This document shows positions 31,222 through 35,074 of a DNA stretch of 35,396 nt, piece by piece. The notes below the pieces were generated by a model that was not told where the DNA came from, did not search any database, and worked only from the letters and a program-made list of their open reading frames with translations. Made by a program: the position numbers and the translations under genes. How positions within the stretch are numbered: position 1 is the stretch's first letter; every line of letters begins with the position of its first letter. Origin of the DNA: an uncultured Flavobacteriales bacterium (GTDB lineage: Bacteria; Bacteroidota; Bacteroidia; Flavobacteriales_D; Sanyastnellaceae); the NCBI GenBank assembly GCA_913051865.1, contig CAJXHE010000010.1:1-35396 (forward strand). The letters run 5' to 3'.

Positions 31222-31256
31222 CAAAAAAAAACCCCCCGACATCATGTCGAGGGGTC
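31222..31256 (-). terminator. rpsT terminator
   Basis: On the minus strand, CCCCTCGAC and GTCGGGGGG form a stem of about nine pairs around a short ATGAT loop, followed by nine T residues (31222-31231 on the plus strand read A). It lies 22 bases after the rpsT stop and 23 bases before the radC start. Confidence 0.9.
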
Positions 31257-31277: not shown

Positions 31278-31532
31278 TTAAGCTAGGCTCGATGTATGAA
31301 TGGTGAGGCTAGATTTAAGGTTGGACGCTTTATTCTTGTGAATGACATTCGTTTTTGCAAGCTTGTCTAACATAGACGAGACCTTAGGCAACATCGCAGC
31401 TGCTTCTTTAGCGTCAGTTGACGCACGCAAGTTACGAATTGCGTTACGCGTTGTCTTGTGCTGGTAACGGTTACGGTCGCGCTTCTTTTCGTCTGAACGA
31501 ACACGCTTTAATGCTGACTTGTGATTTGCCAT
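31278..31532 (-). CDS. rpsT: 30S ribosomal protein S20
   Basis: An 84-residue basic protein with the S20 signature [27 protein letters not shown]-type N terminus (only the first part quoted here matters: [10 protein letters not shown]) and an alpha-helical body ending in [13 protein letters not shown]20 binds 16S rRNA in the body of the small subunit and is made early in assembly. The gene stands alone, with its own consensus promoter and its own terminator, as is common for rpsT. Confidence 0.97.
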
Positions 31533-31553: not shown

Positions 31554-31583
31554 CAAATATAGTTCGGAATCCAACGTATCCAA
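31554..31583 (-). promoter_or_regulatory. rpsT promoter, full Bacteroidota consensus
   Basis: On the minus strand, TTG (31581-31583) is followed after exactly 19 bases by TATATTTG (31554-31561), the best match in this window to the TTG-N17-23-TAnnTTTG consensus. The predicted leader is about 15 bases. Strength fits a ribosomal protein gene. Confidence 0.75.
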
Positions 31584-31597
31584 CAAAAAAAACAAAT

Positions 31598-32053
31598 TTA
31601 ACTGCCACACTCCCATTTTAACATCAAATCGAGCTCTAAAAAGCCACCTTGCACAGTCTCACGACGGTTGCGCTGAAGTAGAAAATCGCTGGGAACGAAG
31701 GTCGTGCTCCCGATAAAATCCTCAGTAGTCGCTTCATCATCATCAAAGATTAATATTTCGATCTGGAGATTCATCTCTTCGCCTATAAACAGAAAAGATT
31801 CTAAATCTATGGAAGCAGGCAAAGCTTGACTATAAGAAACCTCCGATATATAATCGTTGTCACCATTAATGCGAACGATGGCATATAACTCTGGGAACCC
31901 TTCATCTGGAACAGTATCATCATCATAATCTTCATCAAAAGCAATGACATCAATAGATTCGATAATGATATAATCCTGTGCCGATTCATCACAGCACCCT
32001 GTGAGAAAAAAACATAAGAAAACAGTGGCTATTAAAATAAACGTTTGTTTCAT
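31598..32053 (-). CDS. Small lipoprotein with a possible C2-like domain
   Basis: A 151-residue protein from the chosen ATG at 32053. It has a clear lipoprotein signal, MKQTFILIATVFLCFFLTGC, with lipobox LTGC (Cys20), so it is probably anchored in the outer membrane. The mature part is very acidic and beta-rich. The segment LQIEILIFDDDEATTEDFIGST resembles a calcium-binding loop of a C2 domain, an impression not a proof. An in-frame ATG at 32089 adds 12 residues and runs into a terminator-like hairpin, so it is not chosen. Function is unknown. The leader contains a hairpin followed by T, see the separate entry. Confidence 0.8.
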   Translation of the reverse strand: MKQTFILIATVFLCFFLTGCCDESAQDYIIIESIDVIAFDEDYDDDTVPDEGFPELYAIVRINGDNDYISEVSYSQALPASIDLESFLFIGEEMNLQIEILIFDDDEATTEDFIGSTTFVPSDFLLQRNRRETVQGGFLELDLMLKWECGS

Positions 32054-32076
32054 GGTTGCAAGTAAGGGGAAAACAA

Positions 32077-32105
32077 AAAAAGAGCGCAATTAAAGCGCTC
32101 TTTTT
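32077..32105 (-). terminator. Terminator-like hairpin in the leader of the lipoprotein gene
   Basis: AAAAAGAGCGC (32077-32087) pairs with GCGCTCTTTTT (32095-32105) over 11 bases around a 7-base loop. On the minus strand it is followed by a T-rich run, and on the plus strand by five T. No gene ends here: the lipoprotein start lies 24 bases downstream on the minus strand, and the predicted minus-strand promoter lies upstream. It could act as an attenuator for that gene, or end a short RNA. Confidence 0.75.
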
Positions 32106-32175
32106 ATCCTAACAATCTACTTGTATTCATTCAAGAAGGGCTCATTCACTTCCCTTAATGATTAATAATACATTC

Positions 32176-32183
32176 CAAAAGTA
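32176..32183 (-). promoter_or_regulatory. -7 element for leftward transcription toward the lipoprotein gene
   Basis: On the minus strand this is TACTTTTG, an exact TAnnTTTG. Transcription would start near 32169, giving a leader of about 115 bases with two hairpins before the ATG at 32053. At the -33 position there is a T-run rather than TTG. Confidence 0.45.
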
Positions 32184-32329
32184 GTTTAGCACCTGTATAA
32201 TAAAAAATTATTATACGTGTATTTTAAATTAATCGACACAAGATGTTATTTGGTCGATAAAAAACACCTATACAGCTAATGCCTTTCACCTGACAACTTC
32301 ACGTTACCAACTTAAACATCTCGAAATAT

Positions 32330-32455: not shown

Positions 32456-35074
32456 GTGAAAAAAATTATTTTGTCTCTTCTTATTTTGTCTCTTGTATTA
32501 CCGAACGAAAGTCACGCCCAAACAGCACTCACTCTTTTTGGCACATGGCAATGTCTAGACTCTACAGAAATAAAAGCAACAGGAAAGCTACCGGGAAGCC
32601 TTTACAATGCTTTGTTAAGCGAAGGAATTATTCCAGATCCATTTGTGGGCTCAAATGAAGATTCCATTCAATGGGTAAGCCAAATGGATTGGACCTTTAC
32701 TTCACATGCCTTTGACGCTGCGGATCGTGACATGAGATCGGATTTCCTGGAACTAGATCGGGTCCTTACGTACTCTGTTTGGTCTCTCAATGGCGTGAAC
32801 ATTGGCACAACTGACAACGCTTTCCACAAGTGGAAGTTCGACTTGAAATCCGCTTTAAAACCGAACGGAAACATCATAAAAATAAATTTCGGGTCGCCAC
32901 ATAAACGATCAGAAACATTGATTTCAAACACTGGGCATCCATTACCTGGCGACGCCCCAAGAGCGGTTCATCGATCTCCTCAATATGCATTCGGATGGGA
33001 TTGGGCCATGTCACTCGTTGACAACGCCGTCGGTTCAATAAACATCCAAGAATCAAACAAAGAACATCCGCTTCAAATAAATAAATTAGATGTCATCACA
33101 GACCGCATAGTGTCAGGTACGGCAACAGGGAGAGTCAGGTTGGAAATTGAAGGTGAGTCAGATGAAAATCTGATTTTGAGGTGGGCTTTATCAAATCCGG
33201 AAGGACAGGTGGTCGCAGCTGGAAAACTAAATCATGGGAAAGGATTGGTTGAAGTCGGTTTTGAAATCAAGAATGCCGACCTGTGGTGGACACACGACTT
33301 AGGCACACCCGCCATGCACACGCTAGAGGTTGTTGCTGTGGGGCAAGGGAAACTGATGGGGAGAGAAAAAATTAAGGTTGGACTGCGAACACTAAGACTT
33401 GACACATCTGAGGATGAAAGAGGCGCAAATTTTAAATGGATCTTAAACAACATCCCCATATTTGCGGGTGGCGCCAATGTTGTTCCTGCGGACCTCATAT
33501 TGAATCGCATTCGTCACTCAGAAGAAGTGAGATTGGTAGAAAATGCTGTTGCGGCTAACATGAATACGCTCAGAGTGTGGGGCGGTGGAAATTATGCATC
33601 TGACACGTTTATGAATGCGTGTGATGAATTGGGCGTGTTGGTGTGGCATGATTTCATGTTCGCGTGTGCCATGTATCCTGGCGATGGTGAATTCATACAT
33701 TCTGTCACTGAAGAAGCTACATACCAAACCCAAAGACTGCGCCACCATCCATCCTTGGCGATGTGGTGTGGCAACAATGAGGTGAGCGAAGGTTGGGCGA
33801 GGTGGGGATGGAAGGATGGTCTTACAAGTGACGAAATCTCAGATATCCAATCCTCCTACGACAAAATATTTGAGGAACTTTTACCTTCGATCGTTGCTGA
33901 ATTTGATGACGCACCCTACTGGTCATCTTCTCCATCTTTAGGTCGAGGGGATTCGGACTTTGTCAAGTGGGGAGATGCACACGACTGGGGAATATGGCAT
34001 GACGGATATTCTTTCGATTCACTTTGGACAAGGGTTCCCAGATTTATGAGCGAGTTCGGATTTCAAAGCTTCCCAGAAAAATCGACATGGGAGACGGTGG
34101 TGCCTGACGCACAATTTACACGTGAATCAGAAGCAGTCATTGCACACGAAAAACATTCACGGGGATTTGACATTATCGATTCTTATCTCAACGAAACCCA
34201 CGGAAATGGTTTTGAAAATCTACCTTATGAGGAATGGTCATATCTCACACAAGTGATTCAAGCCAAGGGTATTTCTGATGGTGTCAAAGCTGCACGCCTC
34301 AATCAAGACTTCTGTTCGGGATCTTTGGTTTGGCAATTAAATGACTGCTGGCCTGTCGCCTCATGGTCTTCGATTGATGCACATGGGAAATGGAAACTAC
34401 TCCATCACGCGCTTAAGACCGCCTTCGCGCCTACGCTCCTATTCGGCAGATGGAATACTGAAGGTCGAAAACCCATCCTTGAAGTTGGGCTTGTCTCAAA
34501 TCCCACCAGAGAAGCATCCAAAGAGATTCCAGGAACCTTAGGGGTTTCTGTTGTGGGTTTCAATGGCGATGTCCTCTCCATGAGTGAACATCCATTGACC
34601 CTTTCCCCTGGCAAACCAATGTGGACAGAACTCGAAAACATTCTCAGCAGGAAAGTCGACCCCACACAATCCTTTATTCAACTCTCGTGGAGCGACGACG
34701 CGTGTGAGGACACATCCAATTGTCAACATTCAGCGAGCGCTGTGGTGTGGACAGTATTGCCGAAAGACCTCAACCTCGAAAAAGCAGATATTACTGTTCG
34801 CAACGGACAAAAAATGTATTCCGAAAACAACAGCACGCAGTATATTATAGAATCTCCCGTCTTCGCAAAAAACGTTCAACTTACTTGTAACGCTTCCGGA
34901 AACTTCAATATCAATGGATTTGATCTTCTCCCTGGCGAAAAGAAAACCGTCATATTCACACCTCACAAATTAGAAACTTGGGCGCCTGAATTTGCAAAGC
35001 TTGGCACTTCTCAGAAATCTCATTCTCAATTTTTGATTCAAGCAATAAGCCTTAATGCCATACTTGGCGAGTAG
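32456..35074 (+). CDS. Secreted beta-mannosidase, glycoside hydrolase family 2
   Basis: An 872-residue enzyme that removes terminal beta-linked mannose. A signal peptide spans residues 1-21 (hydrophobic run, then ESHA before Gln22), so it is exported to the periplasm or outside. Then come the GH2 sugar-binding domain (30-200, including PQYAFGWDW at 175-183), an Ig-like domain (210-315) and the TIM barrel. The acid/base is Glu442 in MWCGNNEVSEGW and the nucleophile Glu533 in RFMSEFGFQSFP; VWGGGNYASD and VWHDFMFACAMYP are typical of beta-mannosidases. The C-terminal 200 residues are beta-rich. It starts with GTG. It converges on a probable GH20 hexosaminidase gene. Confidence 0.93.
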   Translation: MKKIILSLLILSLVLPNESHAQTALTLFGTWQCLDSTEIKATGKLPGSLYNALLSEGIIPDPFVGSNEDSIQWVSQMDWTFTSHAFDAADRDMRSDFLELDRVLTYSVWSLNGVNIGTTDNAFHKWKFDLKSALKPNGNIIKINFGSPHKRSETLISNTGHPLPGDAPRAVHRSPQYAFGWDWAMSLVDNAVGSINIQESNKEHPLQINKLDVITDRIVSGTATGRVRLEIEGESDENLILRWALSNPEGQVVAAGKLNHGKGLVEVGFEIKNADLWWTHDLGTPAMHTLEVVAVGQGKLMGREKIKVGLRTLRLDTSEDERGANFKWILNNIPIFAGGANVVPADLILNRIRHSEEVRLVENAVAANMNTLRVWGGGNYASDTFMNACDELGVLVWHDFMFACAMYPGDGEFIHSVTEEATYQTQRLRHHPSLAMWCGNNEVSEGWARWGWKDGLTSDEISDIQSSYDKIFEELLPSIVAEFDDAPYWSSSPSLGRGDSDFVKWGDAHDWGIWHDGYSFDSLWTRVPRFMSEFGFQSFPEKSTWETVVPDAQFTRESEAVIAHEKHSRGFDIIDSYLNETHGNGFENLPYEEWSYLTQVIQAKGISDGVKAARLNQDFCSGSLVWQLNDCWPVASWSSIDAHGKWKLLHHALKTAFAPTLLFGRWNTEGRKPILEVGLVSNPTREASKEIPGTLGVSVVGFNGDVLSMSEHPLTLSPGKPMWTELENILSRKVDPTQSFIQLSWSDDACEDTSNCQHSASAVVWTVLPKDLNLEKADITVRNGQKMYSENNSTQYIIESPVFAKNVQLTCNASGNFNINGFDLLPGEKKTVIFTPHKLETWAPEFAKLGTSQKSHSQFLIQAISLNAILGE

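Follow-up and report, generated by a model that had tools for sequence, protein, structure and literature searches.

To our knowledge, small RNAs of marine Flavobacteriales have seldom been described. The closest known systems are GibS of Bacteroides thetaiotaomicron, an intergenic sRNA of ~145 nt with its seed at an open 5' end (PMC7366714), and Rfp18 of Flavobacterium psychrophilum, whose predicted pairing region is its third stem-loop (PMC9723704), along with the ribosomal protein leaders of Flavobacteria, namely those of S4, S15, S16, and L19 (PMC7247131).

Here, we propose that the window (the whole stretch of DNA that was analysed, 35,396 nucleotides, part of a 1.97-Mb genome assembled in 119 contigs) carries on its minus strand a free-standing gene for a small non-coding RNA of ~97 nt, which would have its own sigma-A-type promoter, rely on a linker as its working part and, most likely, act in trans. 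Based on the sequence comparisons presented below, we give this reading a probability of about three in four. The RNA consists of three predicted parts, a 5' hairpin, a nearly invariant single-stranded linker (GTAGATTGTTAGG), and a terminator, and represents a new, lineage-restricted RNA family of an ordinary and already known kind (the intergenic sRNA).

Promoter box, fold, and predicted ends

The -7 promoter box of the small RNA gene, TACTTTTG, lies at 32176..32183 on the minus strand and is recognised by its sequence and by the equivalent boxes in relatives. Since the flavobacterial sigma-A box TAnnTTTG sits at -12 to -5 (PMC9723704), the start in the window would fall at ~32171. Together with a 3' end at ~32075, we infer from the box geometry, the terminator, and the conserved family a transcript of ~97 nt (32075..32171, minus strand). 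Its 5' hairpin (32121..32171) has an outer GTATT/AATAC stem and an inner AAGGG/CCCTT stem (32156-32136, minus strand), and is supported by the folds, by its fit between box and linker, and by strand swaps. The single-stranded linker GTAGATTGTTAGGAT follows (32106..32120, minus strand), nearly invariant and with a conserved core, and then an intrinsic terminator (32075..32105, minus strand), identified from the sequence and a terminator scan, with an 11-bp stem, a 7-nt loop, and a T-run. The terminator hairpin, AAAAAGAGCGC-TTTAATT-GCGCTCTTTTT, occupies 32105-32077 on the minus strand with two further T behind it, leaving a gap of 23 bases before the ATG of the lipoprotein gene (32053).

The whole leader folds better than every one of 200 shuffled sequences (z -3.45). 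When 2 kb were scanned loosely for terminators, 2 sites were found, compared with 1.6 in shuffles, so that the hairpin alone is within chance and the case for the element rests on relatives, where the hairpin is conserved and thereby shown to be real. The first-pass annotation had reported the TAnnTTTG element (32176-32183), the AAGGG/CCCTT stem, and the 11-bp hairpin with its T-run, all of which are present on the minus strand, and its leader of ~115 bases is right if counted to the start codon. Its suggestion of an unannotated short RNA of ~90 bases, starting near 32169 and ending at the hairpin, is well supported, with the length and start now put at ~97 nt and ~32171. It had also recognised no known riboswitch family, in agreement with our Rfam search, in which no family reached its gathering score and none of the lower-scoring matches was convincing.

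Just upstream of the promoter box and overlapping the -33 region, a perfect 9+9 palindrome, GTATAATAA-AAAA-TTATTATAC, is found at 32195..32216. It recurs, little changed, in the other carriers of the genus, and a similar ATATAA-N10-TTATAT is found at about the same place in a second genus, g3. We regard the palindrome as a candidate operator of the RNA gene.

Conservation across five genera

When 60 relatives were searched at the DNA level, the stretch turned up in five further genomes of the window's genus (g1). In two g3 genomes only a piece ending in ACAAGTAGATTGTTAGGAT was found, with a different terminator sequence behind it. Used as a pattern with up to 2 mismatches, this 19-mer matched 46 of the 114 genomes of the family, from 5 of its 21 genera; each of these genomes has a single copy apart from one with two contig copies. 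The reversed pattern, used as a control, gave one match. The first-pass annotation had proposed a covariance model as a check in related genomes, and a model of linker and terminator (E<=1e-3) indeed found the pair in 54 of 399 genomes of the order, all within five genera of the window's family and almost always as one strong match per genome. In addition, scanning genome contigs gave 44 loci, nearly all from metagenome-assembled genomes. The carriers comprise five genera (g1, g3, g5, g10, and g11) of uncultured marine Flavobacteriales. Weak model matches (~27 bits) in other genomes lacked the linker and were rejected as other terminators.

The linker is nearly invariant throughout the family. 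Its 14-base core, AGTAGATTGTTAGG, is unchanged in 30 of 30 aligned copies from the 5 genera, and among the copies found by the model the linker varies in a few g5 and g3 genomes, mostly at its ends. Between two g1 loci (L001 and L006), identity is 100% in the linker, 85% in the hairpin, and 81% in the terminator, compared with 68% in the lipoprotein coding sequence and 44% in the gap between the RNA and the lipoprotein gene. A small open reading frame across the linker was considered and, read by eye, is not conserved.

In nearly all of the 51 distinct copies the order is the same: a TAnnTTTG-type box, 3 nt, a hairpin closing at the linker, the linker, and the terminator. Where the window has G as the last base of the box, the other copies from its genus have A, and the other genera have TAnnTTTG or variants of it at the same spacing (TAATATxG or TATTATxG in g5). 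The 5' hairpin, of 26-56 nt, is genus-specific in sequence and fits the space between box and linker across these 51 copies, with closing pairs of, for example, GUAUU/AAUAC in g1, CGUAUUCG in g10, UGCAUUGUG/CACAAUGCA in some g5, and GCUAUCGC/GCGAUUGGC in g11. A MAFFT alignment of the whole RNA leaves the 5' hairpins of different genera unaligned, and hence the support for the hairpin rests on fold position, z-scores, and strand swaps. The mean z of the predicted hairpin against shuffles ranges by genus from -1.8 (g1, the weakest) to -3.8 (g3), and when strands were swapped between genera, the foreign pairing was weaker than the own pairing in 12 of 13 representatives, the exception being a g11 copy, L038 (best foreign -13.4 vs own -12.0). 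The terminator stem covaries in g5 and g10, where 2 pairs are changed on both sides and pairing is 100%. Comparison between genomes shows a gene unit of three predicted parts, how it is distributed, and that it persists where the lipoprotein gene is missing.

Several observations were made on the edges of this distribution. Two genomes of the window's own genus, G008 and G002 (loci L071 and L073), have another sequence before rpsT and neither the RNA nor the lipoprotein gene, reflecting either the joint loss of the two or their joint gain at a later time. A g3-type copy of the RNA was found on a contig labelled Rhodopirellula sp. MED697 (L146, NZGD01000221.1), which is probably misassigned. 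Finally, four g1 genomes that lack the RNA (L097-L100) share a nearly identical block of ~90 bases (TAACATGGTCAATGACTATGTTGGTTTCAATTTTCTTGCAGGTATAG plus a terminator) between differing flanks. This block (e.g. ~640-740 of L097) has no Rfam match, is absent from the window, and is perhaps a second conserved small RNA.

Neighbouring genes and competing explanations

In the window, the RNA is followed on the minus strand by a small lipoprotein gene (31598..32053; 151 aa, a lipobox-like TGCC, no Pfam match) and by rpsT (31278..31532), which encodes ribosomal protein S20 (Pfam PF01649, E 3e-22) and has a separate promoter box of its own, TATATTTG, at 31554..31561. Behind rpsT lies a strong 12-bp terminator with a T run (31230-31256, minus strand), and the divergent neighbour on the other side (32456-35074) encodes a glycoside hydrolase family 2 protein of the beta-mannosidase type. 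Wherever the locus extends far enough, the RNA lies just before rpsT-radC on the same strand. The lipoprotein gene stands between RNA and rpsT in g1, most of g3, and g11; in g5, g10, and several g3 genomes (e.g. L030, L106-L108) the RNA lacks this neighbour. The lipoproteins of this family are acidic. Clear homologues occur in three genera, and more distant relatives (E 1e-7 to 1e-12) in others; three of these weaker homologues were read, none of which is preceded by the RNA.

Might the RNA then be the leader of the lipoprotein mRNA, in which a signal chooses between termination at the hairpin and read-through? Conditional attenuation of this sort had been put forward in the first-pass annotation. 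All 27 clear homologues in the family lie 18-82 nt behind the end of the RNA model, on the same strand. This placement would also fit a shared transcript and makes read-through coupling possible. In the same direction, no promoter box is visible in the window from the terminator to the lipoprotein start, and G002 and G008 lack the RNA and a clear lipoprotein gene alike. Against this, the RNA is retained with all its parts in g5, g10, and part of g3 with no lipoprotein behind it, inspection revealed no antiterminator pairing, and few stretches are less conserved than the gap between RNA and lipoprotein gene. The g3 lipoprotein gene, moreover, has its own TATTTTTG box directly before the ATG, which fits a leaderless message of its own. 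We therefore consider attenuation of the lipoprotein gene distinctly unlikely. In two g1 loci (L001 and L003), the linker start CAAGUAG could form pairs with a UUACUUG right ahead of the lipoprotein ATG (window 32054-32124), a pairing that is not conserved in L005 and L006.

The constant synteny with rpsT-radC likewise raises the idea of a ribosomal protein leader, the RNA being a control element of rpsT, which is downstream in the carriers examined. Yet a TATATTTG-type box is found shortly before the rpsT ATG in every upstream region read, whether or not the RNA is present; in three genera an entire lipoprotein gene lies in between; in the two genomes where the 16S rRNA was located, the linker pairs with it no better than shuffled linkers do; and no S20 leader is recorded for Flavobacteria in the survey of r-protein leaders (PMC7247131). 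The persistence of the RNA where the lipoprotein gene is missing and the separate rpsT promoter wherever read together argue that the RNA serves neither as an attenuator of the lipoprotein gene nor as an S20 leader. A short block that hardly varies might also be a protein site on DNA, with the conserved 13-mer as an operator and the hairpin as an incidental terminator; but the 13-mer is flanked by two hairpins that change sequence and keep their pairing, the spacing from box to first hairpin is fixed, and the terminator stands directly behind the 13-mer. We give the DNA-site explanation a very slim chance, and the S20 leader a marginally slimmer one.

A putative trans-acting small RNA

In light of these comparisons, how might a free-standing small RNA of this family work? 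Transcription would begin at its own sigma-A-type promoter and end at the 32077-32105 hairpin as an intrinsic terminator. The 5' hairpin would protect the RNA end and also, since in every genus its closing pairs directly adjoin the linker, hold the linker open. This nearly invariant linker, GUAGAUUGUUAGG, would stay single-stranded, and its ~13 bases probably do the regulatory work. We infer that the RNA most likely acts in trans, either on one or a few mRNAs through imperfect base pairing or through a protein that it binds. The lipoprotein gene would be a frequent neighbour, expressed from its own promoter (as the g3 box suggests) or by leak past the terminator.

Linker complements were searched for as exact Watson-Crick seeds, and neither perfect nor short ones pointed to a shared target. 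Across 15 carrier genomes, the linker has no exact 12-mer complement away from the RNA gene itself (the 12-mer CCTAACAATCTA is confined to that gene in 14 of the 15 and is absent from the last), and 8-mer complements within 24 nt before an ATG are not clearly commoner than controls and are absent from some genera. Mimicry of, or pairing with, 16S rRNA was rejected on a comparison with shuffled linkers in the two genomes (of nine carriers) where the 16S was located, in one of them partly masked. As for a protein partner, Bacteroides has no obvious Hfq or ProQ homologue (PMC7366714), so that the partner of this RNA, if any, may be of another kind.

A related reading, which we judge unlikely, keeps the new RNA family and makes the ~13-base linker a docking site for a protein or for a single essential RNA partner, with leak past the terminator also feeding the lipoprotein mRNA in some genera. 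If true, one promoter would yield both a regulator and the lipoprotein message. Under the preferred reading of a free-standing small RNA gene, as under this one, the family offers a precise and testable working part (the linker), predicted ends, and a list of carriers, and close relatives that lack the RNA are listed as well, all of them genomes of uncultured bacteria.

The locus has the traits of an intergenic sRNA, judging by its predicted promoter between genes, its putative intrinsic terminator, and its varying downstream genes. Like the r-protein leaders of Flavobacteria, it stands upstream of a ribosomal protein gene; unlike them, it is followed by a gene, rpsT, with its own promoter box, and another gene may intervene. 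The closer parallels, compared by description, are with the sRNAs. The RNA resembles Rfp18 in being an independent, structured sRNA that is conserved in a flavobacterial lineage and has the same promoter type, and differs in that Rfp18 comes from another genus and has its predicted pairing region in the third stem-loop. With GibS it shares its own start site, an intrinsic terminator, a highly conserved single-stranded stretch, and a limited lineage, with the difference that here a hairpin takes up the 5' end and the conserved stretch comes after it, before the terminator.
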